Assembly (NCBI GenBank): GCA_903813345.2
Contig: CAIIXF020000006.1
Span: forward strand, 7,368,989 to 7,432,988
DNA length: 64,000 nt
Direction: 5' to 3'
Source of the DNA: Owenia fusiformis
Taxonomy: Eukaryota > Annelida > Polychaeta > Sabellida > Oweniidae
Shown piece after piece: positions 3,390-43,842 of this stretch; the first letter of the stretch is position 1; each line of letters begins with the position of its first letter. The translations under genes and the position numbers were made by a program. The notes beneath the pieces are model-generated. The model ran no database searches. It was not told the DNA's origin and worked only from the letters and a program-made list of their open reading frames with translations.

Positions 3390-3894
3390 CTCTAGGGGCG
3401 AGGAGGGAAATTCTCAATAAATGGAGTATAGTTGGTTTGGCAGCATTTTCAGTTAGGGGAGAGTCTTGGATGAAATTTCCACCTAGGTGATAGCTTCACA
3501 GAGTGGTAGGAAGTTCTTTTTTTTGAAGAGTTAACCCCCTACCCCACAAAAACACCCCACCCCGGGGAAAAAAATTGTTCACACTAAATAACCTTAGATA
3601 TTTTGATGTTTGTAAGTGACATACATAGATATTATATATATGAATCATTTGCAGTATAATTGATGCTGATTACTCCTAAAAAAATTGAATATTAGTACAA
3701 AGTGTGTACCCCAGGGGGCAAATTCGTGACCCATTTCCTTACTATTTTGATCCTAACTTTTCAACTAGACACTGTAAGAGGTTGAAAAAATTCATGTGAA
3801 GTGCCCAATAGCAGGGTTAGTAACCCTGAAAGATGTAAAGCTATGGAAGAGGTAGGAGCTGAGAAAAAAATTGTTGATTTTTCGAAAAAGTTGA

Positions 3895-7448: not shown

Positions 7449-7489
7449 TTGAGACCTGATATTTCTCAAATTTTCAAATATTGCACTTG

Positions 7490-13375: not shown

Positions 13376-14317
13376 TGAATGGTATTTCTGGATAAGTGAA
13401 TTGGTGTTTATCTGGGTAATCAAGGGATTATAGTCACTCAAAGTTACTGAGCATCCAGTTTTGAGACTTCAATTGTGTTGGTGATGTTACCCATATTTCA
13501 GTCAAATTCATGCTGAGCACAACATTTTGGTTTCAATTTTATAATCTCTATACATGACCCTGGTGATGAAGAGTCAGAATCAGTCAAAAAACCTAAACCG
13601 GAAAACTGTGCTCATTGTGAAAACTAAAAGTGAAGCAACTTTTTTCCTGATATTTCTTACAACAAATGGCAACCATTTTGTTTTTCCCCCTTCAAATTAA
13701 ACTGGCGGGAAATTCAAAAATTTAATCCTTAAATATATTTCAAAAATATGATTTTCTTTTTAATTCTTCATCGGTCTTAAGTTATTTCTTCTTTGTATGT
13801 CATACATGTTGCCATTGGTGTTTTTTTCTATGATAATGACTATTTTTGTTTGTTTGTCAAGATACTTATTCTGACTCTCAGCAGGGGGTTAATTATGCAT
13901 CAAAATTCGTGAAAAAGTAAATATACTTATTAAATATAACTAGGACAGTAATAAAAATCATATTTCACATACATTTGACTGAGGGACCAAAAGGGCATAT
14001 ACCCAGACACATCCTTTCCAAGGTCTAGTAACATTTCCCCTTTTGAGATCTAGGGTCTCAATCAATTAGTACAAGGAATAGAGCAAGCAAAATGAGCAAA
14101 ACATGGATAAGTTGCTCGCCTCAGTGTTATGTGTGTTCATTTTGAAAATAACATTTGTGAAAGATGCATAATTAAGGAGTTTAACTCATTGGTTCATCCA
14201 GTGCCAGTTGTCCGTCTGATTACAACACGTTTCACAAAGTTATCTATCTCAATGAATTCCTGGAGGCTTTAGCATTCATTTTAGCATGTATTAGATTTAT
14301 AAATTATTCAAAATTCA
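13376..14317. other. no recognisable feature
   Basis: Only a 30-odd-codon acidic ORF at ~13556-13630 (ends ENCAHCEN) stood out, and it lacks splice context. Confidence 0.4.
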
Positions 14318-14555
14318 GATTCCGTTGTCATTGACTATATGGAAGATGCTATATTGTGGCGATTCACGACGAAATTTGATCGAAATTGGGATTTCATATG
14401 ATACATTATCACAGGAGCTTAATACATGCACAGAATTAGCGACGATAAAGTCCCATGAAACGAGGACCAAGTGATTGAAGAATTGAAGCGACGGTCATGT
14501 CCGCCATTTGTGACAGCGGTATCTGACTTTATCGTTGTCAGGCTATTCCGGTGTG
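14318..14555 (+). repeat. fragment of the CACACCGGAATA-terminus MITE family
   Basis: Contains ATTCCGTTGTCATTGAC, GTGGCGATTCACGAC, TACATTATCACAGGAGC and the end GGCTATTCCGGTGTG, collinear (reverse strand) with 24852-25090. It preserves the empty site for the mariner at position 359. Confidence 0.75.
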
Positions 14556-20310: not shown

Positions 20311-22595
20311 TGCTCCGATTGCAGCACAAGGAGTACATAACGCATATTAGTGCTATCATTAGATAGAGGACACTCCCATCTTCATGACCAGATGTTTTTC
20401 TTGTTTGATCTCAGTGTTTTACATGACGATTTTGGATATTCTTAGAATTCGTAGCGTACCCCTCAGTTTTCTAAACTTAAATGTAAATATTTTTCCTCTA
20501 AAAAAATGTTGATTTGTAAATAGATGTTCTCTTACTCCAAAACTTGAACTCTGATCTGACAAATCTAATATTCCATATTTATGTAAAAAACAACAACAAC
20601 CTCGTCACACTGACAATGTAGTGAAACTTTAAATTAAGTTTCATGTTAAGATATTTTATATGATTGCATTTTTAGTGAAGGTAGGGAGTCAATGCCCTGG
20701 GCTTTGTGTAGATGAATAAACGAGTGTCAAAAGAATAACGAAATTTCCTCAACGATTGAATACATCGTAAAGGAAAAAATGTCCGGAATATGGAATAGTT
20801 ACAGCGTTGACTTAATAGTACGTTACCTTCGTGAGTAGGAGGCAATTTCACACTACCCTACCACGTGACCACATTTAAAAATGATACAGGGTACGGTTAA
20901 GTTGCAAATGGAGCGGGTATTCTCTATCTTTGTCCATTGGGCTTTTCTGGTTATAATACGTTGCAAACTGCTCGATGAATCTATACAATGTATAGTAGAA
21001 CACTTAGAATATGTGTAAAATCTAGTATACGTTCAGAACTATGGAAATAAACAAACGTCCTCCATTTGCAACTTCGCTGTAGCCTGCACTTCTTTTAAAG
21101 GAATACAGGATACAGTATGGGGGTATAGTAGTGTGAATTTTGATATGGCGTTTTGCTCCTGGTATTTTAAGATCTTTCTACTCAGCTTATGGCTGTATTT
21201 TTGAATGACTGCGGTGCTAGTGAATTGCGTAATGTTTTAATGAGTTTTCTCCCCAGGTAGCACTAAAAAGAACAATAAGCCCTGCAGAGCAAATTACAAG
21301 CCCATGTGTTTTCAACAAAAATAGCTCATCCAAGCGCACTTACACTCACATAATTCTTTTGAAAGGCATCAGGTCTATTGCAAGCGAACTCCTGTTTCTG
21401 TACTAGCAACGAGGCGACGCAGTTGACACACGTGGTTAGTCGAGAAGTTTGACACATCATAATTAGCGGTGTCAGTGGGCTTAGATCATCTGTTTTTGTT
21501 GGAAACGAGCGACCATGAAATTGGCACCCCGGGGGCTTATTGTTCTTTTTCATGACACCTAGGGGAAAACTTATCAAATATTATGCAGTTGACTTGCACC
21601 GCGGGTAGCTAAAAAACGCAGTCATCTAATTAAGCATGATTAAACTTTTGGAGTTTTTATCCCATCTGACTGTGTTGACATCAAATGGCCGTGACGATAG
21701 AGTATGTGCCCAACTACTATGTAATGCATGGATAATACCTGGCAATAATTACATGGCATCTATCACACCTAATGACAGTTGCAACTCTTCCCTTAATATG
21801 AGGTGATATTGAAGAAAATGTGAGAGCATGTTTAAAATGAAATAGAAGGATGTGATAAAGATCAGAATTCTTATTTAACCATGATGTGTCATGGCTTATG
21901 ATTAGTCAGAGTAATCAATCCATGCTATTTATTACATTTTACACATAGGCTACATGCACTGTGAAAAATTCAAAGGAAACGTTCTAATACTCTTATCAAC
22001 CTGGAATTTAAGATCAAGTTGGAGAAAAAAAGTTGGGAGATTTTGTAAAATAGCGCAAGATTTGAGAGAGAGAGTCGTTCAAAACAAACTACAGTATATT
22101 TTAGCCTCAGGTTAAGTATGTGATCGAATATGGATGTTATTTACAAGCCGACTGCTTTGTCTTGACATGGACATGGTTGAATAATAAATGATCTATTGAG
22201 GGCGCAAAGGAAAGATACATGCACTGGGAAATTGATAATCTAAAATGGAATGTTCTAAGATAATTAGTTTTTGCGATGATTTCAGGCCAGCAATGAGCTT
22301 GAGTGAATTTTCATTCGAGACCGTCATAAGGGCGGTTTCACATTAAGCTATCTGATTGACTCAAAGACTTTTGGTGGAGTCCAACCATGTGGAAATCCTC
22401 GAGGATTTCAAACGCTACTTCGTAAAGGAGCACGTAGGTTATAGCAAACAATTTCAGAAGGTTATCTTGGACTATGACTATTTTCTAACAATAAAGACAA
22501 TAAAGGTTTATCTTTTAGATCAATTCGTCATCTCAAAGAAAATTATATACAGTAAAAATAAAGTCAAACAAACTCGGAGATATTTAACTAGCAAT
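20311..22595. other. no recognisable feature
   Basis: Frames at 21326-21577 (-) and 22356-22628 (+) have no family signature. A weak inverted pair GTTGCAAATGGAG / CTCCATTTGCAAC lies at 20901 and 21059. Confidence 0.4.
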
Positions 22596-24123: not shown

Positions 24124-24128
24124 GTTTA

Positions 24129-24742
24129 CACCCTTGATATACGCAGCTAACGAAAATTGACCGGTACGGGTCAAAAAGCTGGACCGGTACGGGTTAACGG
24201 TTTTATTTGAATTTAAAACGGCCATAACTTGCTCAATATTGACTTCCTCGTGTCTAATTTGAAATATATGATACCTCCCAATGGTTTTAAGTACCCCAAT
24301 TTTTTACAGATTTTTAAACGGACCAAAACTCTCGCATTTATGCTCTTTTCTCTCGAGAACGACTGTCTCATTTTCACGATAACTTTTATTTAGTACTTGT
24401 AACATATAAGATCTATTTTTCCCCATCAAGGTATGATGTAAATGACATGCTATTTACATCTTGTGAGTTTCAATGACGCTCGTTTGATTTTATAAAAAAT
24501 GCCAAACATTGTGACAAAGAATTTCCTCCTGCTTGCAGCGAGAAGACGGACCGGTTCGGGGCAATAACACACATGTATAAAGATTCCTAAATTATGTTCA
24601 TGCTATTGCCCCGAACCGGTCCGAGGAAGTCAATATTGAGCAAGTTATGGCTGTTTTAAATTCAAATGAAACCGTTAACCCGTACCGGTCCAGCTTTTGA
24701 TCCGTACCGGTCAATTTTCGTTAGCTGCGTATACCAAGGGTG
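24129..24742. mobile_element. 614-bp element, CACCCTTG ends, 5-bp duplication GTTTA
   Basis: The ends CACCCTTGATATACGCAGC (24129) and GCTGCGTATACCAAGGGTG (to 24742) are inverted for about 120 bp with few mismatches. GTTTA is duplicated exactly at 24124-24128 and 24743-24747. Six copies of the word GACCGGTWCGGG or its complement occur inside (near 24160, 24182, 24549, 24612, 24680, 24703), with an inner inverted pair CGGACCGGTTCGGGGCAATA / TATTGCCCCGAACCGGTCCG. No ORF. CAC/GTG ends plus a 5-bp duplication point to a Transib-type transposase acting in trans. Confidence 0.85.
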
Positions 24743-24851
24743 GTTTAGAAGGCGTTCATTTTACTATATCGACCTGAGCAATATGTGACGTAATAGTGGC
24801 GGTCAATAATGCATTTAATGTCCGGCAATTTTCTCCGGGAAATAAGATATC

Positions 24852-25325
24852 CACACCGGAATAGCCTGACTACGGTAAAGTCAGATACCGTTGTCACAAA
24901 TGGCGGAAATAACCGTCGCTTCAACTGTTAAATCACTTAATCCTCATTTCATGGGGTTTAATCGTCGCTAATTCTGTGCATGCATTAAGCTCTTGTGATA
25001 ATGTATCATATGATCCCATTTTCGATCAAATTGGGTCGTGAATCGCCACAATATAGCGTCTTCGCTATCGTCAATGACAACGGAATTTGAATTTGAGTAA
25101 TTTAGAAAGACAACGGCATGGTAACAGTTCCGCTGTCCCGTATCTCATTTTGATCGGTTAAATTAAAGACTTTACTCCGATGGTAGGACATTATTAACTG
25201 TTCAATGAGTATTAAGACACTTTGATTGATTGTTGTTCCAAAGGAATTTAGTCATGAAAATCTAATTGAAGCGACGGTTATGTCCGCCATTTGTGACTTC
25301 ACCGTTGTCAGGCTATTCCGGGGTG
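24852..25325. mobile_element. 474-bp MITE, CACACCGGAATA ends, 5-bp duplication ATATC
   Basis: The ends CACACCGGAATAGCCTGAC (24852) and GTCAGGCTATTCCGGGGTG (to 25325) are inverted. Similarity continues about 70 bp (GTCGCTTCAA / TTGAAGCGAC). ATATC is duplicated exactly at 24847-24851 and 25326-25330. This is the intact reference copy for the family seen at 361-485, 14318-14555 and 58549-59477. Same CAC...GTG plus 5-bp architecture as 24129-24742, only 109 bp away. Confidence 0.88.
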
Positions 25326-25330
25326 ATATC

Positions 25331-26330
25331 GTTCAATGCGTAAGATTTTCTTGCTGTTTCAGTCCTGGTCATTAACGGTGGTAATAATACTAATACCGTC
25401 ATTTCGAAGGGCAATATAGTGAAATATTGGACCGAGGGCTAATAATTGAATCGAAGACTCGCTATTAAGATTGAGAGACAGACTGCAGTAGTAGTTTTGG
25501 TAAAGCTAGTACATTACTTTACATGACAAAAAGGTAACAGTATTTCTTAATTCACGAAATATACAATTAGATTAATGTGAGACTTGAGAAGATCGATTTC
25601 CATTTCTATTTTGAGAACCTAATGATTGTGTTCCTAAAAGAGTAACATTTAAAGATGTTGTATCATTGTGTGTCGAATTGAGATCTCGCCTCATCAGAAA
25701 AAATCAAAATCATTGGAAATACCATACAAGAAAAAGTACATTTAAAAGCCCTCTTGTAAAAAAACGTACAGGAATTCGAATACAGGTATGCTATCAAACG
25801 ATTAAACATTATGATAAACAATATGACATTTCATTTCTCAGGCTAGATCTCGTATTAGACACAATGTGATACACTTGTAATATTGTGGGTTAAATTCTGA
25901 GATCCAAGAGAAACCAGATTTTGGATTTTTGCCATGACCAGTCTAACATTAACAGAGACAAGCTTCTGCCATCCAACCAACCGAACACGCCTTGTTTTGC
26001 TATTATATCGGGAGAGGGATCGCTGATATCAATTTGTCTTATTCTGCTTAGCAATGTGGAGGAAGTCATGAAGCTAATTACGAAAACGGATCCGTGATCA
26101 TGTGAATTCCGTTGAATATTATACAAATATTTAATTATATGAGATGAATACCTGTGCATCTTTCACAAAGGCCAAAGCCCTAGGGGCTTGTAGAACATTA
26201 TCTTGTGAAAATGGCTGCCATTTTTTGTAAAAATTGAAATATGAGTAGACGGATTTGGTTTAAATTTCACATGCTAATGGTTTAGGGACATAGGACTCTG
26301 TTTTTCAAGATAACTGCTTAATTAAAAACA
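25331..26330. other. mostly featureless
   Basis: A GGTGAATACCTG-like word (GATGAATACCTGTGCATC, 26143) and the small stem AAGCCCTAGGGGCTT (26175) resemble the hairpin repeat at 12976. No genes seen. Confidence 0.4.
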
Positions 26331-26675
26331 TTTGCACTTTTTGTAGCAAATCCTGAAACGATTTGCCATCTTCTGTATGAATGTACTATTGTAAGTGCCG
26401 TATTAAATGACATTAAACAATGGCTCCCTTTAGAGCTCACATTGCTATGCACTAAACAAAATGTATTGATAGGACCTGAGAGTATAAATGAGAAGACAAT
26501 CATCCTAAATAATATGTTATGTATTTTTAAAAGGTATGTTTATTTGTGCAAATATTCTATGCTAAAACCAACACTTAAAGGTTTTATAAGTAATGTGAAG
26601 GAATATTTTATTATGGACAAACGGGTTGGCAGAGGCGATAAGTGGAAAATCATGGAAACAAAATTAAACAAATGA
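26331..26675 (+). pseudogene. non-LTR retrotransposon ORF2, C-terminal tail with CCHC motif
   Basis: CTFCS (26333-26347) is followed, after a one-base frameshift at 26348, by NPETICHLLYECTI and about 95 more residues ending KWKIMETKLNK at the stop 26673-26675. C-x2-C ... H-x4-C just after the reverse-transcriptase domain, followed by W-containing helices, is the usual C-terminus of many LINE ORF2 proteins. The 5' part, including endonuclease and reverse transcriptase, is absent, so it is a 5'-truncated copy. Sequence differs clearly from the LINE tail at 16473-17447, so two families are present. An A-rich 3' tail is seen at ~26840-26862. Confidence 0.75.
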
Positions 26676-27111
26676 AACTGATGATTTTTTCCTTCAAATA
26701 AAAAAAATGCCAATGGTATTACGTCTCTTAAAGACTAAATATTTAACCAATACTGTATTGTAAAATTGTTAAATGTAGGTTTACCATGTAACTGTACTGT
26801 AATTGTATTTTGCAATTGCTTTAACATGCTTATTCTTTGAAATAAAAAAAATTATAAAAAAATGGCATTGTTCATTGTTCAGGAAAATGTAATTTTTACA
26901 AGTTATAAGATTTGTTATAAGATATGTGGTAATGATTTATTGTCATGAGACCTCTGCTCAAGAAAGTATTTACTAATGGCATCGCATCCGCTGCGGTTGG
27001 ATTGGCTCTCCGTGCAGTTGCTATTTTCCTAGTTTAACATTAAGAGGCAGGGAAGGTCAAAGTTGAACATAACAATATTTGCACTTTTGTGTTGCAAACT
27101 TTATTCGACAA

Positions 27112-27556
27112 GAGCGCCAAAAAAAATCAAATCTGTTTAAAAAATTTGGGCGCTCTGTTACGAATTGATTAAAGCGCCGAGAGCGTATCAAAGCTTAACA
27201 AACCGTAACAAAGCTCAGAAAAGCTTGATCCAAAGCGTAGGAAAGCTTAACATAGCTCTGATAGGTTCCTCACGCTTTGATCCCGCTTTGACCAGGCTTT
27301 GTAAGGCTTGAAATCACGCTTTGATAAGCTTTGATAAGCATTATTACGCTTTGATGCGATGATGACGCTTTAAATCAGGCTCTGATACGATTGCCAAGCT
27401 CTGTTGTGCATTGTTACGCTCTGTTAAGCTCTGTCAAGCATTGGAAAATGTCGAGCTTTTCTACTACCTATTACGACCCCGACGCTTTCATCAAGCTTTG
27501 TAACGCTTTGGTGCCGCTTTACAAGCCACTTTAAAGCGCCATCAAAGCGCCATTGG
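27112..27556. repeat. dense array of AGCTTTG / CGCTTTGATAAG-like motifs
   Basis: About 30 degenerate copies of RAAGCKY / RGCTTTGR occur in 445 bp, spaced about 10-14 bases. Left of ~27260 they run mainly as CAAAGCTTAAC / AAAGCG. To the right they run as CGCTTTGAT / AGCTCTGTT, so orientation flips around a centre. GGCGCT words bound both sides (GGGCGCTC 27150, AAAGCGCCAT 27533 and 27545). No ORF. Confidence 0.75.
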
Positions 27557-28855
27557 TGTGAATGTAGCTTAACATAACATTTTCATCGTTTTTGTAATTG
27601 CTGCACTTTTTAGCCCATTCATTTACGTAACTTAAGTGAGGAAGTATATTGATGATTTTGCAGTCTTACAAGGAAAAACGTTCGCAAAAGCTTTGATTTT
27701 CTGAAACATAGCACTCTGACAAACGTTTGTGCAAAAAAGATAGTGGTGGTTTTGTTTATATCTCGTGAAATCATGGAAAAACAAACACGTATCGAAATCG
27801 TTTGCGCCATTTTGTTACGAAAACGGATCTGCTTACGTAACTCGCTTAAAAGAATTATAATACAAGGTAATATGGGCTTGTCCAAACCAGCAGCAAGTTG
27901 GCTATGGATTTTCAAGATCTTTCTTCTCAGTTTATATTTTATCATCTAAATTGGGGTCTTAAAACTGTTAGATATTATATCACCTATTACCCGTGTTAAT
28001 ATCTGATGGCAATTTTGTAATGTTTTGACATTGAGGGCAATGATTCCATTATCCATTACGCATAATGGCAGCTGTAACTCTCCCCATTAGGTTAACATTA
28101 AAGAATATGTCGCATAATATCAGAGCATGACGTGCATGTGTTTGTGAAACAGAATAATGATGCTACATGTATGCGTATCAGAATGACGATTAATTCTCTA
28201 AAACCAACTTTGTATTAGATTCATATATTAGGCTATAGGAGACAGCTATACATGTTGTGATGTTGCATCTAGCTTCAAGAATGTCACACTATAAATTGTT
28301 TTTTTAGATTAAATTACGTTGACATTGATCAAGTAATGTTCTATTACCAGGAATTCAATTATCACCTTTAACATCCCAATTCTCAGAAGGATAATTGTAA
28401 ATAGATGTAATTGTTATTTTACAAGTAACGTCCGTGACCTCATTTCGATAACATACCACACTGGCAAAACAGCCCTAATTCACGTCCTGACTTTTTATCT
28501 CGAGTTATGGATTTATGTGGCCTCATTGGCCTATCTGAAGTTCTAAAGCTATATCTAAGCTACATTTTGACACTAAACTCAATAGGGGCCAAACATCTAC
28601 TTTTTGAAATAATTGGTCAATTGTGACACTACCCCCTCTCTCTGCCGACAGAAATTGAAATTCACAAAAATGAAGGCAAAATTAATACGCCACTTAACTC
28701 GATATTTCCTTTCAGGTAACCCAAATAAACGCATTTTCAGAAGAAATGGCATGTTGTCATTGCAAAAAGATGACAACTGTACATACAGCTTACTGACTCG
28801 TCATGATCACAATTGTGTTGGGACTACATTCATTTTTCAAAACTACTTTTTTTCT
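27557..28855. other. no strong feature
   Basis: Overlapping opposite-strand frames at 27619-27949 show no family motif. ATTTTGTTACGAAAACGGATC at 27811 is echoed at 53889 and 56872, a minor dispersed repeat. Confidence 0.4.
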
Positions 28856-28860
28856 ATTCA

Positions 28861-28940
28861 GCGGAAGTGACGTATTAGGGCAGTTTCGCCACTGGTACGT
28901 CAGCGTAACAAGATGAAAGAACTTCCGGGCTTCGTTTTCG
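28861..28940 (+). promoter_or_regulatory. possible promoter and first exon (ETS/CRE composite, ATG, donor)
   Basis: GCGGAAGTGACGTA at 28861-28874 matches the form of an adjoining ETS site and CRE, common in animal core promoters. ATG at 28913 opens MKELPGFVF and reaches a good splice donor G|GTAAGA at 28940/28941. The same GGAAGTGACGT word occurs at 49188 and, reversed, at 1313 and 42591, so it may instead belong to a repeat. No downstream exon was identified. Confidence 0.25.
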
Positions 28941-29285
28941 GTAAGATATTTTTATTTCTCGATTCTTCACCACTTATAAGTCAAGTTATGGACAATAATT
29001 TGGCTCAAAATGAAGGAGGATAGTCTAGTTTGAGAATATGCAGGAGGTTCTATGTTTGGTATATTAACAAAGACGCAATTCACATATTTAGTCCCTCGAT
29101 TTTGTTACGTTGACGATCTTCATGGATATTGCCAATGTGACAATATTCATGAAAATATTACGAAATTTCGCGAGAACCCGCCCCCTTAAACTTTTTTTAA
29201 AAACACAACTTATCAAACAAAGTACTTGTTCAGCCTCACGCCTCTTTGTCAAATATTGATTAGTTTGCTTTCAATATAAAGAAGT

Positions 29286-29422
29286 TATTCACCAGGAGGA
29301 ATCTGATATGGGGAATATCACGAGGATGATATCAATATTTCCCGAGGGGATGCAGTGACCAAGGAAAATATTGATATCATCTGAGGGATATTCCAGATAT
29401 CATCCCGACAGGTGAATAACGA
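29286..29422. repeat. hairpin repeat with GATATCATCC motifs
   Basis: GTTATTCACC...GATGATATCAATATTT (29285-29342) pairs with AAATATTGATATCATC...GGTGAATAAC (29365-29422). Direct runs of TGATATCATCCCT continue at 29545-29615. Confidence 0.75.
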
Positions 29423-29639
29423 CATATTATACAATGGTCAAATTTTGGGGGAAAAAATGAAAAAATTTGGAAAAATGAATTTTTCTAAAAAAATAATTTT
29501 CTTTTGAAAAAATGAACTTTTTGAAAAAATGTTGAATTTACCCAGGATGATATCAATATCATCCCTGATATCATCCCTCTAATCCTGGTATCAACCCTGA
29601 TATCATCCCTGTCCCAAATATGTGATTTATCACTTGCTA

Positions 29640-30008
29640 TTATATATCTGATATTGCTCTGACCATGATATAAGTTCGTTTATATCACACATGCAGTGTG
29701 ATTTTATCAATATCTTCACATGTAAAAAGTAATGGGCATTTTGTAAACTATCTGCTGCTAGCTGTCATTGTGACGAAAAATCGCATTAATGATAGCATGT
29801 AACAATTGTTATATTATATGTTTGATTATCCCATTCGCGTCGAGTGCATGAAGGCCTGAAGGGGTATGAAGAAGCCATTAGTCCATTCGTGCTGTCTGTC
29901 CGTCCGTGGATCGGTTCGGTCGTTTTTCGGATGTTAGTCCGACTGGACGGATACTCAAATGCAAGGAATTGAAACTTTAAAACAGCTGGTCGCGTTTAAT
30001 AATCTGTC
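29640..30008. other. no recognisable feature
   Basis: Contains CTGTCTGTCCGTCCGTGGATC at 29900, a short relative of the TCTG/TCCG tract at 45786. Otherwise nothing. Confidence 0.4.
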
Positions 30009-30013
30009 ATATT

Positions 30014-32886
30014 CACTGGGGGGTATCGTGATGCAACAACACCGTGTTGTTGCATCAAGATGGCCAGACTTCCGGTGATAGATTTTCGTACGATGTTTTG
30101 TTTTCCCAATTTACACCCATTTCTAGGACGAGTTGCTCAATAATCATACACATGCAGTTAGCGCATGATCTATATTTTAAAAAACTGTCATTTGTATACA
30201 CGTAGCATCATCAAGAAGCGATAAATTCGTGGTTTTAATTCCTCACTATTGATGCAACAACACCACTCTGTTTCTTATCGATGATGCAACAACACCAATG
30301 TGCTGATGCAAAAACGCCAATATAATGTATCATTGAACAACAAGAGAAACTGTTTTATGTTCTGTTTACTGGTGTAGGTCGGGACATGAACAAAACGCGT
30401 GGGTCAGTGGTCCATGAACGAAACGTATTTTGTTTGGTTTCTTTGTCTATATCAAAGTTAAAAGGATATACAAGGCAAACTAAATAAAGTACAAAATCCC
30501 CGGGAGGCAATCTCATTGATATTGTATCTGAAAAATAAAGATTATACATTTTCTAAATTAAATGCCCTTGATTTACCGTATGGAAATTGCTTACAAATAA
30601 CTAATATAATTTTGGAAAGACAACAGATATCAGTCATTTTGTGTTGTTAGTACCACAATTGAAATACTCAATTCTGATTGGTTGATGAGCGGGCAACAAA
30701 ATGTATTGTTAGTACCTGAACTTAAATACTCAATTCTGATTGGGTGAGCGGAGCGGTCAAAATTATGTACTGTTGCCCGCTACTAGGTACTGTTGACCGC
30801 TACTTCTGAAAAAAAAGTTTCATGACGTCACAAAAAAAACATGGAAGACGGGCATTTTGTAAACGTTGATGAAAATGACTTTACTAGGCGACAAGTATAG
30901 CAAAAATACAAATAGAAACTTAAAATTAACATTAATTCACTAACGAGTACGCCGTGATGTGCCAAATACAGAGTTAAGCTACTTGCACTGTCTCCATATT
31001 TTCTATGCTATTGCTAACGTGGTTCGGAGAAAAGGTTGTGAAATGAAGCCATGCCGATTGATGATTTTCGTATTTTTGTGTATTATTACTATATTAGTTT
31101 ACTCGGACTAACAAAACAATTGTAGACCTCTCCATTCGATCAACCGTCAAAATCATATACCTACCTATATAACTACTGTTGACCTCGACTTTCGGTCTCT
31201 GTCAACAGTAGTTTTTCGGTTTGCAGTCTCGGTATACAATTTTGCCGGTTGACCTCTGGGGAGGTCAACAATTGTAAACTGTTGACCGCTACTAGGTACT
31301 GTTGACCCCTATTTTTTAAAAATTGTTTTTAATGTTGAAATTTTTTTAATTTTGAAAAAATAAGTTGTGTAAAAAATTACAAGCATTCGACGGTTTGGGG
31401 ATTTTTCGCTAAAATATGATACCTTTACTTATCAAATATGTTCACGTGATATTCGATTATATATTCGTCCAATTATTATATTATTTGGACTAACAGAAAA
31501 ATTGTTAACCTCTCTTTTCGGTCAACTGGCAAAAGTGCCCTCGACCTCTGGTCTTGATCAACAGTACTTTCAAGGTTTACAGTATCGGTATACAATTTTG
31601 CCAGTCGACCTTAAGAGAGGTCTACAATTGTATTATATCCTTCAAATTATTATATTCTTCGGACTAACAAACAATTGTTAACCAATTCGGTCAACTGGCC
31701 AAAGTGTATACCTCAACAGTAAACCCTGAAAGAACTGTTGACCTCGACCTCCGAACTTTCAAGGTTTACAATATCGGTATACAATTTTGCCAGTTGACCT
31801 CAAGAGAGGTCTACAATTGTATATTGTATATCCTTTGTTATCCCACCCAAAGTATGATGTCATATATCAAGTTGAAGAGTTGTATACGCTGCTCAGGAGT
31901 TTACGCTATCCAGGAGTTGTACATCGTTCTCAAGAGTTGTATAGGATGAGTGTTGGTTTAATGATATTGCAGTTATACAATGCTATTATATAAAGGTTAT
32001 TTACTGAGAGAGATTCAATATTGGTTTTATTCCGAGAGACAATATGATATTTCCCGAGGGCCCGGGATATCTGGGATAACTGTACCCCTATAAATTTACC
32101 TTTTTAGGCCCTAAATCTTATCACTTTTGTTTACCTTTTTACTCAGTCGGAGAGAAGGAATCCAAAGAGAGCAATAACGCTACAGGTAGTTTATCACTGT
32201 TCCACATGATGATAGATAATTTCCAATAGCTCATCATGTTTACCGAGAACGAAAGATGTTTGTCCACCATTTTGAATGATACTGACTGGAGTCAGGGTCA
32301 TCAAGCCATGGAACACAGTGGTTTATGAAAATAGATTGGGTTACTAAAGCTTGCCATGTTAAAGGCGATTGAACTATGTTATAGAACAATGTCCAGTACA
32401 TTATAATATTTAAAAGTATAAATTTGTGAAAATACATATAAAGGATCTTCGCCCGCAGACGTGTATTTTGAATGCCTTGAGAAGAACGCAAATATGGGTA
32501 ATGGGTAACGGTGTTGCAATAGTAGCATTTAAAAATCTGTTCCTCTCGAGATTTATGGTCTTCTGAAATGATACTATTAATTGGTGTTGCTGCATCATTG
32601 CTCAAATCTAGAGGAGTGTTGTTGCATCTTCGGTCTGGTGTTGTTGCATCAATAGTGAGGAACTAAAACCGTGAACTAATTGCTTCTTGGTGATGGTACA
32701 TGTATACTAATGACAGTTTCTTTAAATATAGATCGTGCGCTAACTGCACGTGTATTGTTATTGAGCAACTCGTCCTAGAAAGGGGTTTAATTGGGGAAAC
32801 AAAATATCGTACGAAAATCTATCACCGGAAGTCTGGCCATCTTGATGCAACAACACGGTGTTGTTGCATCACGATACTCCCCAGTG
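30014..32886. mobile_element. 2.87-kb element, CACTGGGG ends, ~300-bp TIRs, 5-bp duplication ATATT
   Basis: The ends CACTGGGGGGTATCGTGATG (30014) and CATCACGATACTCCCCAGTG (to 32886) are inverted, and homology extends about 300 bp on each side (30014-30330, 32590-32886). ATATT is duplicated at 30009-30013 and 32887-32891. Each arm contains the perfect palindrome GATGCAACAACACCG joined to its complement, plus further GATGCAACAACACC copies (30249, 30280). The interior lacks a transposase and carries three diverged repeats (31090-31830). CAC/GTG ends with 5-bp duplications suggest a Transib-type enzyme in trans. Confidence 0.85.
30655..31830. repeat. diverged internal repeats with TTGACCTC/GAGGTCAA words
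   Basis: Three copies of about 170-190 bp (near 31100-31280, 31485-31635 and 31660-31820) share GGACTAACA...AATTGT, ACTGTTGACC, TCGGTATACAATTTTGCC and a closing GAGGTCWACAATTGTA. Each copy is partly self-complementary. Two AAATACTCAATTCTGATTGG units sit at 30663 and 30723. Located inside the 2.87-kb element. Confidence 0.75.
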
Positions 32887-32891
32887 ATATT

Positions 32892-33460
32892 TAGCCATTA
32901 TTTAAATACTTGATATAAAATTGTTTTGACGGGAAATTTTTTGGGGAATTTGCTACTTCGTTGAGTTGCTAATGATTTTTTATAGATGGTCAATAAAATC
33001 GAACAGTTGAACTTGAATTACATTTACAACATTTGATTGCTTATATATCAGTAATTGTATAAGTAGCTAAAAGGTCGAGGCTATTTAGTTTTAGTATTTA
33101 CAGGTTTCTTCAAGCAGAACGCAGTTCATTTACGACAGAATACTATTCTGTGGCTATAATTCTCAATATACTTGCAGCAAAACATACAATACCAAGCCAT
33201 TAATATAGCATAGTGATAGTACGAACATCTGGATATTAGCTTGGAACGAGAGCTTTAAAGTCAATTCCTTCTGTTAAGGTAGTTGTGTGGTATCGCTAAA
33301 ACTTTTTTCTACGACAAAAATATATTGCTTTCACTAGGAAACTTCAAGTTCTAAAAAACTGCACAACGCAAATTTTCTTTAAAATATAATTATTCAATGG
33401 GAATACAAAAGTATTCATGGTAATATCCATGAGAATTCACAGCCCGGATTTTAAAAAAGA
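32892..33460. other. no recognisable feature
   Basis: AT-rich sequence without ORF or repeat signals. Confidence 0.4.
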
Positions 33461-33469
33461 ATGAATTTT

Positions 33470-33730
33470 ATGAATCGGTGGGAAAATATTATCATTCCAT
33501 TATATAATTTATGATTCAACTTGCCAAATAAGGGTCTTGATAAAACAGCGTGTGTCATATAAAAAGAGATAAAAAATGTATTGTGGGAACGTAGTTCAAA
33601 AAGGCAGAAACAAAAATAACTGGGATTCGAATACGACACCTCCCAATGACGAATCACGATCGCCACTAGACCAGATTGTGTTGTCCATCGTGATGAGAAA
33701 TCATTGCAATCACTGAACTGAACTGAACTG
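33470..33730 (-). repeat. tRNA-derived SINE candidate
   Basis: On the minus strand, TGGTCTAGTGGCGA (A-box-like, ~33670-33657) and TATTCGAATCCCAG (B-box-like, ~33631-33618) are spaced as in a tRNA. AT-rich sequence follows, with no acceptor-stem pairing seen. A short (GAACT)n run lies at 33714-33732. Head assignment is reasonable; the 3' limit is a guess. Confidence 0.5.
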
Positions 33731-33738
33731 AACCACGA

Positions 33739-34587
33739 CACCCTATGCAGACAGAGCCTGTGGGAAATATTGGGTGCGGAGCAAATGAGCGGATGGTGCG
33801 GAGCTAACGGTTATTTTTGAATTTAAATTTGGGATATTTCTGAAACTAAGCCGTTTTGGGACTTCAAATATACCAAGGTATGTGTATTTGACACCAAATA
33901 TCAATACAATTGCGAAAATAGTAGCGCAATTCATTCTATAGCGACGCAGTGTGTCTTAAACCTTTCCCAGACCTATATATTTTGAAATTATCCTTTTAAT
34001 ACTGAGTCCCCAGCATTCATAAAAAATGGTGTTCAAGGTGCACTATCTATACAAATTATTTTTGCATCTTGGAAGCCAGGCAGTATCTGTGTGATTTTAT
34101 AAAAATTCGGAAATGTTTTCAGATATGAGCCCCCTCTAAATATTGGGTGCGGAGCAGCTCCATAAACGTAGCTCCGCACCCAATATTTAGAGGGGCTCAT
34201 ATCTGAAGAACATTTCCGAATTTTTATAAAATCACACAGATACTGCCTGGCTTCCAAGATGCAAAAATAATTTGCATGGGTAGTGTATCTTGAACACCAT
34301 TTTTTATGAATGCTGGGGACGCAGTATTAAAAGGATAGTCTCAAAATATATAGGTCTGGGAAATGTTTAAGGCATACTGCGTCGCTATAAAATGAATTGC
34401 ACTACTATTTTCACAATTTTATTGATACTTGGTGTCAAATACACATATCTTGGTATATTTGAAGTCCCAAAACGGCTTAGTTTCAGAAATATCCCAATTT
34501 TAAATTCAAAAATGACCGTTAGCTCCGCACCCTCCGCTCATTTGCGCCGCACCCAATATTTCCCACAGGCTCTGTCTGCATAGGGTG
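33739..34587. mobile_element. 849-bp near-perfect palindrome, CACCCTATG ends, 5-bp duplication CACGA
   Basis: Arms ~33739-34155 and ~34170-34587 are inverted copies over about 415 bp with a loop of roughly 15 bases. The ends CACCCTATGCAGACAGAG and CTCTGTCTGCATAGGGTG are exact, and CACGA is duplicated at 33734-33738 and 34588-34592. The word AATATTGGGTGCGGAG occurs near both ends and again at the centre. The 60-70 codon frames seen here are symmetric artefacts of the palindrome. A transcript would fold into a long hairpin. Confidence 0.88.
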
Positions 34588-34592
34588 CACGA

Positions 34593-36115
34593 GAACTTAC
34601 GCAATAATGAGATTTGAGATGTGCAGACTGATTGCGTAATCGATTCTGGCTTTCATGTGCAGCCAACATCCGATGGCAGCGTCACTGCGGTCTAACAGGG
34701 TATTAATGAAAAAGAAATGACGCAATATGTTCAAAGGTTCCAATATACCATTTGACAAATTAGAATCAGAGTGTCAGCTTTGAAGGCCACGCCTTCTTAG
34801 TCTTTCTTACCATTTCATAACCATGAATTTATTGAATTACAATTTTATTTTAACATGAAAACCCTATTTTTAAGAATAACAAAAAGGCGTAATTTCAAAC
34901 TTTATGAAAGGTGGGGTGACAATTTTAAACAAATTGTTGTATTTTCAGTATTTTTCACAGTAACATTCCCTCACTATTTTTATGCTGGAATGTAATTCAG
35001 TGATGTATGTGAAGAAGTTGGAATGGCAGTAAAGGTCAAATGTCAAAATCGGTATTTTTGTCATTAATTTAGTAGCCAATTTGAATTGATTTATTAACAA
35101 TTTAACAATTGCACACTCAAATGAATTGACAACCCCCTGTTCGTGAAAGTACTATTTAATCAACTTAGTAACTACCTGACGGAGTTTCGTTGTTATCATA
35201 TCCTTACAATAAGCCAATACGCGATGGATTTTTAGTTCAGTTCAGTTTAGTTACCTCACGTTTGAAGAGTTCTCATGAGAGGTACAACTTCGTCTACATC
35301 CGGGTTCTTTCCCATTGGATTACACAGGAGTGCGATTTTCAATGCCGCACTACGGCTTTATTAAACATTTATGTAGTGTTGCATTTGCACAAATAATAGA
35401 TATGTATGATATTTAGATATACATCAAGGCTTTTTGAACTATAATCCCCTAATCCAAAGAAATCTTTAGTTGGTCTTTAAATCTCCGATTATCTTTCTGA
35501 TTATTGAATAGAATGGATAATGTAACTATGCTCGAGCGCTGGTGGAATATCGGAGGCTGAGAAACTGTCATTTTTGTCAAGATTCAGGCTAGTTTTATCA
35601 GAATTTGTTGAAATTTTGTTCGAGCAATCTTCCGCCAATATGATGCTATACATATGCTATGATGTAATCCTCGACCAACGAAATTAGCAGACCTTTGACT
35701 TTGCAGTCTCCGGACGTTTTGTTAGAGTAATCGACTCGTTCGGCGAGCCAATGAAAATTTGTCCCTTCCAAAGCGATGCATCATGGGGGATATTTATGTA
35801 AATTACCATCTGAACTCTTATCGCGAATATGTCTATTACTTCGTACATTATGCTTTTCCCTTTCTAATGGTATATTCAAACCCTTCCAAATGAAATTGCA
35901 GCATTTGACCATTATTTGCTAAACTACATGTTAGCAGCTGCTCATTGCGTTGAAATGATACAGAAACTAATTAAAGTATATAGGAGTGTCAATGTCACAA
36001 TCAGCTATTGTAATATATAGTTGATGCAAGACTCTATAGCTCATAGGAGTCATTACTACTGATGTCATAAGGAATGCAAACGGCGACTTGTCGGTTAATT
36101 CCAACTTAGCAGGCA
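34593..36115. other. upstream region of the GPCR gene, no clear element
   Basis: No repeat or ORF of note. The last bases before the GPCR start (TTCCAACTTAG|CAGGCAATGG) could be a 3' splice site, so a 5'-UTR intron may lie here. No convincing TATA box was identified. Confidence 0.45.
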
Positions 36116-37369
36116 ATGGAGGAAGACACTAATTGGCGGCCGTTGAATCCAAGAATCAATATATCAACAGAAGTAAACGATTACTTTAATCATACATATG
36201 GAAATAACGTAATTGTAAAAAACGAAACGAACGATGAGTTTCCGAATGGCACCTATGAGATGTCCATACTGTACGGCAGTCCGGACTTACAGGAAATTTT
36301 GAAAATGTCAGAAATGATCGGTAAAAAAATCATGCCTGCAATACTAACGTTAATCATCATATTCGGAGTATTAGGGAATCTACTCGTGATTTGCGTTATA
36401 CTTAGGGATAAATTTATGAGGAATGGATCTTACCTGATGTTCCTAAATTTAGCAATGGCAGACATGCTGTACCTTGCTATTTGCCTCCCTGCTTCTATCT
36501 CTGAATCTGTGCGGAGTCGTTGGATCCTAGGGGAAACCATGTGTAAAATTGTACATTTTACAGTTGATGTCTCTGTGTACGTGAGTATTTACACCTTGGT
36601 GCTGATTTGCCTTGCGAGGTTCCTTGCGGTTGCGTTTCCGGTACAATTTTCCAGTTCACAGACCCTGTCCTGCTCAATCACCGCATGTGCAGTAGTTTGG
36701 ATAGTTATGTTGGCTGCAAACATTCAAGTTCTCATCCGAGCTAAACTGCAACCCATTCGACCTGACCTACCAAACAGCGACGAGGTGCATTGTTTCAAAA
36801 CAAATAGTGATGATGAAACGAAAAAAGTAGTTCTACATTTTTTCATATTTGCTTACGCCTTGCCACTGGTCTTCATCACTGTTTTAAACGGTATCATCTT
36901 TCTTCACCTCCAGAGTGCCGCCACAGGTGATTACTTGAGCCTGGCCACAAGGAAGCGTAGAAAAAGATTTCGACAGCTTGTCATACTCGTTATTATTGGC
37001 TTTGCGGTCTGCTGGGGTCCTATCAATATAATGGGAATGATCCAAACACATGGCTCTGTTCATATGTCTCGTGTTTGGACGATTCTTAACACGGTATCTA
37101 ATTGTATGGCCTACGCTAACTCTATGATCAACCCCATATTCTATAACATTGGGTCGTCGGATTTTAGACGGGCCTTCAAAGACCTGGTACAAAAATGTCG
37201 CTCGTGCGGATGTGAGAGCTCTACTGAAAGTAACGTCCTGGTTGTTGTTGCGACTGTAAATAAAGACAAAGCGCGAAGTAGTTCCGACAATCCAAGTGAT
37301 CTAGGAATGGCGTCCAGCTCAGTGCCTAGCAGGGTCTCAATGCCTACGCTTTCCAGTACATCAGTTTAA
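36116..37369 (+). CDS. class A (rhodopsin-like) neuropeptide-type GPCR, galanin/allatostatin-like
   Basis: The 417-codon single frame has seven hydrophobic segments, placing it in the plasma membrane as a G-protein-coupled receptor, probably for a peptide. The N-terminus (~70 aa) has four N-glycosylation sequons (N15, N25, N36, N44) and no signal peptide. TM1 carries GNLLV (N88), TM2 LAMAD (D116), and TM3 starts at C143, which can bridge to C226 in the second extracellular loop. TM4 has W195, TM5 P250, TM6 CWGP (W300, P302) and TM7 NPIFY (339-343). Helix 8 reads FRRAFKDL, followed by palmitoylation-type cysteines C361, C364, C366. The third intracellular loop is basic (RKRRKRFRQ). Unusually, the TM3 DRY box reads ARF (167-169). 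The start is supported by an in-frame TAG at 36107-36109 and good context GCAATGG. A TTTCAG-poor acceptor-like TTAG just upstream leaves a UTR intron possible. The ligand and subfamily are uncertain. Confidence 0.93.
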   Translation: MEEDTNWRPLNPRINISTEVNDYFNHTYGNNVIVKNETNDEFPNGTYEMSILYGSPDLQEILKMSEMIGKKIMPAILTLIIIFGVLGNLLVICVILRDKFMRNGSYLMFLNLAMADMLYLAICLPASISESVRSRWILGETMCKIVHFTVDVSVYVSIYTLVLICLARFLAVAFPVQFSSSQTLSCSITACAVVWIVMLAANIQVLIRAKLQPIRPDLPNSDEVHCFKTNSDDETKKVVLHFFIFAYALPLVFITVLNGIIFLHLQSAATGDYLSLATRKRRKRFRQLVILVIIGFAVCWGPINIMGMIQTHGSVHMSRVWTILNTVSNCMAYANSMINPIFYNIGSSDFRRAFKDLVQKCRSCGCESSTESNVLVVVATVNKDKARSSSDNPSDLGMASSSVPSRVSMPTLSSTSV

Positions 37370-37393
37370 TATGAAGACTGAATATACCATATT

Positions 37394-38683
37394 CACGGTG
37401 TATAACCCAAACGCTCCTACATGCACGACGGAGCGTTTCATTACTGAAATTAAACAAAGAAACGCTCCGAAGTAGGAAAACTGGCTGGCGGGAATGATGA
37501 GCCGTCTGACGATTTCCCCAATAATGGGAATAAGAGGTATGAGTTACATATTTCGAGTATACCATTCGATGGGTGTGATATTCATGTTGTACTTGGCTGG
37601 CTGTTGACGTTTGAAGCAATTAGGAAGAGCTGTACGAAGCAGTATAGTTATCAAAATCCAAAAACGTATTTGTCATTCTACCGGTCAAAACCCCTTTTGT
37701 CGATATATGTGATTAGTTGAGCCAAGATTAGAGCACCAACGTTTATTTTAGTCAAATTCCAATGCTTCAACGCACCATACATTATCGTAATAGTGATTTG
37801 ATGACCGAAAATCCAGTCTTAAAAATGATGACATTCTCATATTCAAGAAACGCTCCGATCTGGTTAACACAGTGAACTGGAAACGCTCCGGTAGTCTAGA
37901 TCTGTTTAGGAAATATATAGCTTGCCTTTCCTTTTCAGGAAGAGAAAGAAAAGATCTATTATACCCCTTGGCATCAAAAGAAGAAAGATTAATTCACATA
38001 TAAATTTTCTTTTTTTTATAGTTTTATGATTTAGCACACATGTAGGCATGACATCATCTAATGTAGGCTTAAATCAGCTAGTTGCACGTTTAGCACCACC
38101 AGGTTCAGATGTTTCAATTTGCCTAACAAGTACAACACGAATTTGAGAGAAAGATTCGATTCGGAACTCTTCTCTAATAATCTGAAAATGATATCAAAAC
38201 AAAATGGTAAGAGCGTTTCTATAATTGTGCTCTAAATCGACGGAGCGTTTCGAGGAAAACAAGCGATTTCTTGAGAACAAGTAATGCATTTGGACTGGGA
38301 TTTTAGGAAATGAGAATATACGAGTTTGTGATCTACTACTTTAACAGAAAGATTAACGTTTTCATAGAAATACTAGTTTAATTCGTAATTTGTGGTCAAA
38401 TCGTCATCTTCAGATTCGTTCGATCTACACTACGGAGCTTTGATCAAGCAAATAACAGTTTACCACCAGAAGTTGAATAAATAAGATCTTTGGTCACGGT
38501 ATTGTTCATCGAATGGTACATAATATTTCACCATAACATATGATATGTAAGAGAAACGAGAGAAACAATACTGACGGTCATAGTGAAATCTTCATTAGCC
38601 GCCATTTTATTTCGCTCTGGAGCGTTTCCGCGTAAATGAAACGCTCCGTCGTGCATGTAGGAGCGTTTGGGTTATACACCGTG
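37394..38683. mobile_element. 1290-bp element, CACGGTG ends, 49-bp perfect TIRs, 5-bp duplication ATATT
   Basis: The ends CACGGTGTATAACCCAAACG (37394) and its exact complement (to 38683) form perfect 49-bp inverted repeats. ATATT is duplicated at 37389-37393 and 38684-38688. About ten copies of AAACGCTCC or its complement are scattered through both halves (e.g. 37411, 37431, 37459, 37850, 37878, 38212, 38248, 38623, 38639, 38660), like subterminal transposase-binding sites. No ORF. CACGGTG is one base from the RAG recombination heptamer CACAGTG. It starts 25 bp after the GPCR stop codon and so would supply the gene's 3' UTR unless polyadenylation is immediate. A CACTA-type origin is the main alternative. 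Confidence 0.88.
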
Positions 38684-38689
38684 ATATTC

Positions 38690-40667: not shown

Positions 40668-42224
40668 ACCCCCTATCACTCCAAACCTTCTCAACCATTC
40701 TTTCAAGTATTACCCTACTATCACACCGAACTAGTTCTCACTACGTTCTCGAAAACGGGCTTCAACTGTGTACGAACGGACAGGACGTACTCGGAACCGT
40801 TTGGGGTCTAGTTACAAACTTCATCGAACGTACTTGAACGGGTAGGTCCTCTAGAACTAAGAACATCCTAAAAATGCTCTCGTGGTCGTCACGTTCTACA
40901 ATTAGAACGAGTGACAACGTACTAACGACGAGCTGGACGTACTACGAACGGAACCGTCGTACTTCAATCCTACTAGGGACGTTTTAACAACGAGTTGAAC
41001 TGTCTGAGGACGTATTGAGAACGAGGTAGAACTAATTGCAAACGGGTTCAAACTGATTAACAACGTATTAAAGACTACTTATGACCGAGTTAGCAAAAAT
41101 ATAGCTATCACACCAAACAAGTTGCCACTGCGTTCTTCAAAACTGGTTTTAAACTGTCTAAGGACTATTTACCCTACTATCACACCAAACTAGTTCTCAC
41201 TACGTTCTCGAAAACGGGCTTCAACTGTGTACGAACGGACTGGACGTACTAAGAACCGTTTGGGATCTATTTACAAACTTCATCGAACGTACTCGAACGG
41301 GTAGGTCCTCTAGGACTTAGACAATGCTCAAAATGTTTTCGTGGTCGTCACGTTCTACAATTAGAACGAGTGACAACGTACTAACGACGAGCTAGACGTA
41401 CTACGAACGGAACCGTCGTACTTCAATCCTACTAGGGACGTTTTAACAACGAGTGGAACTGTCTGAGGACGTGTTGAGAACGAGGTAGAACTCATTGCAA
41501 ACGGGTTTAAACTGATTAAGAACGTATTTAACACTGCTTATGAACGAGTTGGCAAAAATATAGCTATCACACCAAACAAGTTGCCACTGCGTTCTTCAAA
41601 ACTGGTTCTAAACTGTGTGCGAACGGAATGAACGTAACTGCAACTTTCTAAGGTCTATTTACGAACTTTATGAACGTTCTCAGACGGGAATGTGATTTTA
41701 GAATTTTGAATCGATTCAAAATTCGATTCCGACCATACCGTTCTGTTATCAGGTCATGATGACCTTCTAGACTAAGGGACGCGTTCTACGGCGTTGCACA
41801 CCGAGGTGGTGCGACCTGAACGAACTGCGAACGAGATGGACGTATTGAAGACTGTTTAAGAACGAAGAAGCTAATTATTTCAGACATATTTCCCGACCAC
41901 AGCCAGTTTGAGCCCGTTTTACGACGTTTTCGTAGGACTGGCAAGAACGGGTAAGAACGAGTTTGGTGTGATAGGGGGGTAACGAACTTCATGAACGTTC
42001 TCAGACGGAAAGATGATTTAAAATTTTGAAATAATTCAAAATTCGATGACTGGCAAGAACGGCTAAGAACTAGTTTGGTGTGATAGGGGGGTTACAAAAG
42101 ATTCGTAAAACTTGCTAAATCTCTAAATCTGGCTATGGTCGAGTATTATGTTTAGAGTTTTACGACTTTTTGTGGGACTGGAAAGAACGGTTGAGAACTA
42201 GTTTGGTGTGTGTGGGGGGGGGGG
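40668..42224. mobile_element. ~1.56-kb element with CCCCCTATCACWCC ends
   Basis: The left end CCCCCTATCACTCCAAACC...CTCAACCATTCTTTC (40670-40705) is inverted relative to GAAAGAACGGTTGAGAACTAG...TTTGGTGTG with a G-run (42181-42221). The interior is crowded with GAACG/CGTTC words and further CTATCACACCAAAC copies (40713, 41107, 41173, 41566; reversed at ~41970 and ~42074). No credible ORF. Confidence 0.65.
40709..41625 (+). repeat. ~458-bp tandem duplication
   Basis: The block beginning ACCCTACTATCACACC at 40710 is repeated from 41169 and shares the inner landmarks AACGTACTAACGACGAGCT and ATAGCTATCACACCAAACA. Identity is above 90 percent by eye, so it is much younger than most repeats here. 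Confidence 0.85.
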
Positions 42225-43560
42225 TAAAAAGTATATCTCATTTGCACAATTCACACGTGCATCGATTTTTACCGGAAATGGTGTATGAGTAAACTAAATG
42301 TGAATTAGAGGATTTTGAATGTTATAGGTCAAACAAGCAAGCAAGCAGGGACGATACCGATAACATTTTAAATTTTGGATGTGTATCTATGGGCCCCTTC
42401 TTCAAATGAATCGAACTCCGTGGCAGTGCTAGTCTTCTATTCCGACACACTGCATGGGAGTTTGCAAATGAAGTAGGGGCACATTTGGAATGAACCCATT
42501 TTTGCACATTGTATACAGATAATACTTCTAATATTGTATCAAGATAAATGAATGAATAAATATATGTAAGTCTTGTAAGCCTCCTTATTTTGACGTCACT
42601 TCCAAACATTCGTAGTGAAGGATCATTTTTCCAAGCTTTGTCGACTAACATTAATCACGTGATTTTTTTATTTCATTGTTACATGATCGAACACACTTAT
42701 ACTCAGATGCGAGTAGGTAGTTACTAGTTTCGCCACCAGGTGGCTGATTCGGGGGAAATAACATGGCAGGGTATTACAAAATTCCCTTAAACTTGAATAT
42801 ACATCAGTTTTAGTGGTTCACTTTTCAAATTACCCTTATAGTGTATGTGATAGTTATACAAATTAAAATATGTCCAGTAAAAGGAAATATTATCTGCCCA
42901 ACACAAGAAAAGTTATTTCACTTTTTGTAGTTTTACAGCATGGGGTCTATGGGGAATCTCCCCGACCTAGAAGTCACATTTTCAAAGAAAATTAAATTTT
43001 CAAAGTTGATAAACTCTCAAAACAACAGTTTTAGATGTAATTGTATATGTAGATTCCAAATATGACACCAGTTTGACTAAATTGTGAATTTTTAATGACG
43101 TAAATCAAGATTATTTCTACTCGCATCTAGGATATTGAGACATGTGTTTTGCGTCTATGCGCACGCGCCATATGTGCTTCCGCTATTTACAATTCCGAAC
43201 ACCTCGATAGTCGATGTTAGTTACTGCTTAATCACGGTGTTATAGCATTACGGTTACGTCAAGGCGATTTGCAAAATTTTGCGGTAACGATAACAAAAAA
43301 TGGCGGATGGGAAAGACAGCATGTCCTCTTTCTCGCCTGTAGGCAAGATTCACAGATAATATTTCCATTTCAACTAGTTCCATTCGGTGATGTTTATATG
43401 GATGGTTATAAAGACTGGGTCAGACCTGCCAGGTGGTTTACTAGAAGCAGAATATAAGCTGTAGACTTAGCGACTGAGATATCAAAGTTCATAATTTTTA
43501 GTCCATTCTCGTGTTTTCTCAGTATATGTGCCTCAGAGCCACTCAAACTATTAACTGTTA
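42225..43560. other. repeat fragments; possible short exon at 43300
   Basis: GGGGTCTATGGGGAATCTCC...GACCTAGAAGTCACATTTTC at 42943-42980 recurs at 57949-57980. 43080-43135 matches 23455-23510. A CpG-containing stretch at 43150-43360 has ATGGCGGATGG at 43300 opening MADGKDSMSSFSPVGKIHR before a stop. Nothing further supports a gene. Confidence 0.4.
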
Positions 43561-43842
43561 CCCCCCTATCACACCAAACTAGTTCTTACCCGTTCTTGCC
43601 AGTCCTACGAAAACGTCGTAAAACGGGCTCAATCTGGCTGTGGTCGGGAAATATGTCTAAAATAATAAGCTACTTTGTTCATAAACAGTCTTCAATACGT
43701 CCATCTCACTCGCAGTTCGTTCAGGTCGCACCACGTCGGTGTGCAACGTCGTATTCTAAGTACGTCCAGTCCGTCCGTACACAGTTGAAGCCCGTTTTCG
43801 AGAACGTAGTGAGAACTAGTTTGGTGTGATAGTAGGATTAGT
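43561..43842. mobile_element. ~280-bp MITE with CTATCACACCAAACTAG ends
   Basis: CTATCACACCAAACTAGTTCT (43567) is inverted relative to GAACTAGTTTGGTGTGATAG (to ~43841). Its left 200 bp is the reverse complement of ~41785-41985 (GTCGTAAAACGGGCTCAA and GTTCAGGTCGCACCAC blocks). This is a short relative of the 40668-42224 element. Confidence 0.75.

Follow-up and report, generated by a model that had tools for sequence, protein, structure and literature searches.

Five non-autonomous CAC...GTG elements of Owenia fusiformis share an A/T-rich target motif and were very likely moved by one type of enzyme

In the passages cited here, protostome RAG-like elements are described with the tips CACTWMCAAACKTYKBB and 5-bp target duplications (PMC7204232), and the duplications of ProtoRAG are GC-biased, like those of Transib and vertebrate RAG (PMC8289069). 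Drosophila hopper, a Transib, produced 5-bp duplications in 532 of 533 insertions, with the GC-rich target motif CCANTGG (PMC3276498). The EnSpm-Mirage-Chapaev-Transib group overall has duplications of 2-5 bp, and hAT5 (5-bp) and hAT6 (6-bp) duplications are described in a lineage with animal hATs, both groups being attributed to Kapitonov and Jurka 2007 as cited in the same source (PMC12730594). Here we compare with these systems five elements, E1-E5, with CAC...GTG ends, that lie in a 64,000-nucleotide stretch of the annelid Owenia fusiformis (the window, C6:7368989-7432988, in contig CAIIXF020000006.1 of a genome of 498 Mb in 525 contigs).

A preliminary description of the window had reported five such elements with exact 5-bp duplications within 15 kb. 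Checked base by base, the positions and repeats proved correct throughout: five of the five elements start with CAC, end with GTG and are bounded by exact 5-bp repeats. The elements and their duplications, the latter from the sequence check, are as follows, in window positions.

24129..24742, no strand assigned: E1, a 614-bp foldback without a recognised gene, ends CACCCTTG(A/G)TATACGCAGC, arms of ~120 bp
24124..24128, + strand: left target duplication of E1, GTTTA
24743..24747, + strand: right target duplication of E1, GTTTA
24852..25325, no strand assigned: E2, a 474-bp element without a recognised gene, ends CAC(A/C)CCGGAATAGCCTGAC
24847..24851, + strand: left target duplication of E2, ATATC
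25326..25330, + strand: right target duplication of E2, ATATC
30014..32886, no strand assigned: E3, a 2873-bp element without a recognised gene, ends CACTGGGG(G/A)GTATCGTGATGCAACA
30009..30013, + strand: left target duplication of E3, ATATT
32887..32891, + strand: right target duplication of E3, ATATT
33739..34587, no strand assigned: E4, an 849-bp near-complete palindrome with 379-bp arms, ends CACCCTATGCAGACAGAGC
33734..33738, + strand: left target duplication of E4, CACGA
34588..34592, + strand: right target duplication of E4, CACGA
37394..38683, no strand assigned: E5, 1290 bp long with no recognised gene, inverted ends perfect over 49 bp, CACGGTGTATAACCCAAACGCTCC...
37389..37393, + strand: left target duplication of E5, ATATT
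38684..38688, + strand: right target duplication of E5, ATATT

The terminal inverted repeats are perfect over 49 bp in E5, 94% identical over the arms of E4 and 96% over ~120 bp in E1, and are weaker in E3 (~320 bp, 84%) and E2 (~73 bp, 77%). Subterminal repeats were identified in E1 (GACCGGTACGG), in E3 (GATGCAACAACACC), the interior of which differs from copy to copy, and in E5 (nine AAACGCTCC repeats, on either strand). Repeated 9-mers exceeded the shuffle level in E1, E3, E4 and E5 and were not clear in E2. The longest stop-to-stop frame in any of the five has 140 codons (E3), and in a search confined to the longer frames neither this one nor two more E3/E4 frames and two E5 frames matched Pfam over the cut-off; no Rfam or tRNA match was found within the window. 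For this base composition, the chance of a single exact 5-bp flank match is 0.0015, compared with the roughly 1 in 1000 estimated before. When the window was scanned for inverted ends bounded by equal, non-palindromic flanks, 53 hits had flanks of 5 bp. Fourteen of them, with at least 15 of 16 end bases matched, consist of E1-E5 and nine positions within other large inverted repeats, namely the 3.6-8.5 kb inverted pair and the arms of E4 itself.

The five elements had also been described as different families internally, which was found to be true in part. Bases 23-89 of E1 align co-linearly with bases 25-89 of E4 with a score of 43, which none of 300 shuffles reached (best 30). Similarity in the next best of the 15 pairs compared was unconvincing, E3-E5 being matched by 9 of 300 shuffles and E1-E3 by 13 of 300. 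The alignment indicates that E1 and E4 are related by descent, so that the five families are not all independent.

Further sequences resembling these elements lie elsewhere in the window. A longer relative of E2 (58549-59477) has a doubled right terminus, with a 39-bp tandem tip copy at 59398-59472, and no clean duplication (AATGT / AACAT), and truncated E2 relatives are present at 14296-14555 and 361-485. A weak CAC..GTG pair (13/16) with 5-bp AATTT flanks at 20849-21135 is possibly a sixth, decayed member, or a chance match.

Candidate copies were abundant in the genome. The first look gave 743 candidates for E1, 1425 for E2, 744 for E3, 994 for E4 and 866 for E5, the queries for E3 and E5 being the first 340 and 307 bp. 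Identities were listed from the best 40 scored candidates per family and are thus biased upwards: they were 98-100% for E5, 99-100% for E3 and E4, and 84-89% for E2 (window copy apart), and the E1 copies listed were structurally varied. Additionally, 28 of 30 fetched E4 copies, chosen as best matches, differed by a mean of 0.28% from their own majority, and the exact E5 tip was found 425 times in the genome, the reversed control 0 times. The families have inverted ends, target duplications, many similar copies and, among the longer frames run against Pfam, no recognised transposase, as expected of miniature inverted-repeat transposable elements (MITEs) or foldback elements. These results show that the families are real non-autonomous elements, and E3, E4 and E5 at least are recently active.

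Counting those in the window, both ends were read for 64 copies, and the target duplication was 5 bp in 58 of 64 and 6 bp in 6 of 64. The main set (n = 62; E1 11, E2 11, E3 1, E4 29 and E5 10) comprised 58 copies with 5 bp and four with 6 bp, i.e., AATACT and GTAATG in E1, ACGTCT in E2 and CTCAAA in E4; two extra E3 copies, beyond this set, had AAGTTT and AGTACG. The 6-bp duplications are genuine: the five bases next to the element on its left are not the same as the five next to it on its right. Outside the count are E4 copy L026, with a changed tip (GAC) and no duplication, and, among ten E3 copies fetched, eight for which the right end was not found in the piece fetched. The preliminary description had held that another duplication length among the copies would tell against a Transib-type enzyme, and this is what the minority of 6-bp copies does in part, although 6 bp was not a length it had named.

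Forty joined insertion sites were compared with the fetched genome pieces in a search for empty sites. For E4 copy L011, three paralogous empty sites were identified in which ATTAT is present once (L062, 85% over 194 columns; L038, 90% over 60; L004, 75% over 104), and for E5 copy L008 a single, less strong match spanned the site (L058, 76%). In a fifth hit a copy had aligned with its own flank, and this hit is disregarded. No spanning match was found in this fetched DNA for the other joined sites (37 of 40), including the five in the window.

The target sites provide the best evidence that the families share an enzyme. We analyzed 59 sites with 5-bp duplications, 58 from these families and one from a further element, L140, described below. 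The base before the left duplication was C in 29 of 59 and the base after the right duplication was G in 27 of 59; combined, the outer C/G was present in 56 of 118 positions against a background of ~0.17 (p = 7e-14), and the central three bases of the duplication were A/T in 152 of 177. Tested apart, E4 (30/56, p 1e-9) and E5 (10/20, p 0.0009) showed the outer C/G clearly, and E1 (7/18, p 0.03) and E2 (8/20, p 0.015) were both weak alone. The profile of 30 E3 left flanks was compatible, with T at -1 (25 flanks), A at -5 (21 flanks) and C at both -6 (14 flanks) and -7 (16 flanks); two C peaks are what would be expected if the duplication were 6 bp in about half of the E3 insertions. When symmetrised, the motif reads C[AWWWT]G, palindromic and A/T-rich. 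Because this preference is common to the families, as are their ends and main duplication length, one enzyme type, or close relatives, very likely moved all five, in agreement with the earlier proposal that one enzyme type mobilised several passengers.

We regard the five elements as cut-and-paste transposons of the non-autonomous kind (MITE or foldback), which a single type of DDE/D transposase would have mobilised in trans. This enzyme would cut at the CAC tips and insert with a 5-bp, occasionally 6-bp, stagger into C[AWWWT]G; we infer the excision chemistry and the single enzyme lineage serving all families. The best explanation as a whole, to which we give even chances, is one such enzyme kind that is most likely a hAT of the hAT5/hAT6 type. 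Subterminal binding sites and repeats are known in hAT elements, and hAT domains are plentiful in this genome, with 137 matches in a six-frame profile search in which the control genomes were silent. As in E1-E5, 5- and 6-bp duplications occur within this one superfamily (PMC12730594). In the cited part of a survey of molluscan genomes, hAT was second only to TcMar, and Transib accounted for 1 of 14,275 elements (PMC10294476). The hAT5/hAT6 reading is drawn from the published pairing of 5 and 6 bp, the abundance of hATs and the subterminal repeats, not from a gene, and hAT5/hAT6 may be regarded as the best known fit, an unproven candidate for the enzyme.

Several points weigh against a hAT5/hAT6 enzyme. 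No transposase bounded by E1-E5 ends and no parent element were found, nor was a hAT domain found between E-type tips. For CAC tips, we read six hAT loci (L109-L114), L139 and a hAT nested in L140, out of the 137 matches. Three of the six (L109, L110 and L113) had both ends, all with TAG tips and 8-bp duplications; the L111 family, resolved through its second copy L139, and the hAT nested in L140 also had 8-bp duplications, and the ends of L112 and L114 were not found. All five resolved hATs therefore differ from E1-E5 in having TAG tips and 8-bp duplications, and no hAT5 was seen among them. Subterminal repeats also occur in the EnSpm-Mirage-Chapaev-Transib group. CAC tips are no less typical of that group (PMC12730594), and the molluscan survey bears on this genome only on the assumption that the host is mollusc-like.

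Two candidates for an E5 parent were rejected. L115 (2791 bp) and L116 (2078 bp), from 100 of the 425 E5 tips that were listed, are tip-to-tip spans of E5 with other DNA inserted, with a longest frame of 111 codons. No frame in the interiors of 30 E3 copies exceeded 159 codons, and two of these frames, when run against Pfam, had no match over the cut-off. In addition, two of the hATs belong to young families with 8-bp duplications: L110, with ends TAGAGCTCTGATC and two places of equal domain score, and L139, with ends TAGGGCCGTGCC and three equal-score places, for which the two copies read are 99.95% identical over 4067 bp.

Tentatively, the enzyme may instead come from an undescribed or uncatalogued lineage that has CAC..GTG tips and 5/6-bp duplications and perhaps branches within the EnSpm-Mirage-Chapaev-Transib group; L140 is maybe its closest carrier. 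L140, an element of 4099 bp within C10:22586200-22590800, has ends CACTGTGGCTAGTC that are perfect over 14 bp and the duplication CACAA. It is coding, with an open exon of 177 codons followed by a GTAAGT donor, and the exon contains a zinc-finger-like CxxC..HxxxxH pattern; a convergent 62-codon frame on the reverse strand resembles C2H2 weakly, with an E of 0.0014 that falls below the cut-off. Of 711 genome candidates for the exon, 150 were scored and all 150 matched; the second frame gave 44 matches from 50 candidates, and the tip occurs exactly 331 times in the genome. Among 100 L140 tips listed, 38 adjacent tip-to-tip spans were shorter than 20 kb, none with a hAT hit, and 10 of these 38 measured 4.8-14.6 kb. 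Long tip-to-tip members are located at C1:8132382-8140816, C3:8970024-8978144 and C3:34394714-34403506.

Set against this, no catalytic domain was seen in the L140 family, and no transposase match was found for L140 in Pfam (both frames) or in PDB and NCBIfam (exon only), the best sub-threshold exon match in Pfam having an E of 0.012 (below the cut-off) and PDB giving nothing below E 0.26. The exon had no match in IMG/VR. The three members read whole or in part carry a nested hAT (L140), an insertion of unrelated DNA (L142) and a deletion (L143), and three frames of L142 had no Pfam match over the cut-off. Moreover, the L140 ends have no sequence similarity to those of E1-E5, and one duplication only was read for the family. 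EnSpm/CACTA, Mirage and Chapaev resemble E1-E5 in their subterminal repeats and differ in their duplications, which are 2-4 bp, as opposed to 5-6 bp here. CA..TG tips are described for most lineages of that group (PMC12730594). That several MITE families recently reached hundreds of copies or more through a lineage belonging to none of the named superfamilies, with L140 as its coding relative, seems to us rather unlikely.

A Transib or RAG-like transposase, as the preliminary description had proposed, would account for the CAC tips and the mostly 5-bp duplications, and we regard it as improbable. The Transib heptamer is CACWRTG, which the L140 tip CACTGTG fits at 4 of 4 places (1.8% of random CAC sequences), and the E5 tip CACGGTG agrees with the heptamer of the recombination signal sequence at three of the four positions after CAC (4.7%), both percentages being uncorrected for the number of tips tried. 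The fit of E1-E5 to the heptamer is at most 3 of 4, and L140 alone fits CACWRTG. The palindromic target with outer C and G is a further likeness to Transib (hopper, transib2), and the outer C...G recalls the Drosophila motif CCANTGG (PMC3276498). E1-E5 differ from Transib in their AT-rich target core (central 3 bp A/T in 152/177), which contrasts with the GC-biased targets of ProtoRAG, Transib and RAG, and in their 6-bp duplications, at 6 of 64 compared with 5 bp in 532 of 533 hopper insertions (Fisher p = 8e-6; 4 of 62 and p 5e-4 without the two extra E3 copies). Protostome RAG-like elements share the CAC tip and the 5-bp duplication (PMC7204232), but beyond CAC the E1-E5 tips agree with their consensus CACTWMCAAACKTYKBB at 2-6 of 14 places, equalled by 60-99.7% of random CAC draws. 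A genome search without a positive control gave three scored candidates and no match for RAG1 (PF12940) and no candidates for RAG2 (PF03089); the control genomes were also silent, and the same route gave the 137 hAT domains. The Transib or RAG1-like reading frame bounded by the same ends, earlier named as something to look for, was not encountered, no parent having been found. Taken together, the tips, the AT-rich target and the 6-bp duplications make a Transib-related enzyme less likely.

A match of the five by chance or through an assembly artefact is extremely improbable, as in every family the tips, and duplications of 5 or 6 bp, recur in other copies across the genome, and an E4 copy has paralogous empty sites.

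Other features were identified around the elements. An intact single-exon frame for a rhodopsin-family receptor (36116-37369, + strand, 417 aa, Pfam 7tm_1 1.3e-43) has galanin receptors as its best solved relatives. Since the left duplication of E5 starts 20 bp beyond its stop codon, E5 may lie within the 3' untranslated region of the receptor gene. A 305-bp element at 967-1271, the ends of which match (CAAGGAGGATTGGCTCCCAG) and the duplication of which is 9 bp long (GGTGCCGGC), Mutator-like by this length, sits inside an 804-bp TTAA-flanked inverted repeat (789-1592). The window also contains a large inverted repeat at 3577-8508, with 183-bp tandem arrays in its arms (3932-4553 and 7448-8156), inverted arms of ~1 kb at 50077-54958 (about 50077-51103 and 53901-54958) that have many stretches exactly in common, and a tandem duplication of 459 bp at 40710-41616, the inverted partners of which extend as far as 43815 (40710-43815 in all).

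A RAG-type enzyme, if true, would be relevant to how V(D)J recombination arose, and the evidence is against it. Tips and duplication length can mislead, as 5 bp is common to Transib/RAG and hAT5 and CAC to several groups; here the case against RAG comes only from the target motif, the few duplications of 6 bp and the inner bases of the tips. A target motif shared by families without common sequence provides a cheap link of orphan MITEs to one enzyme.

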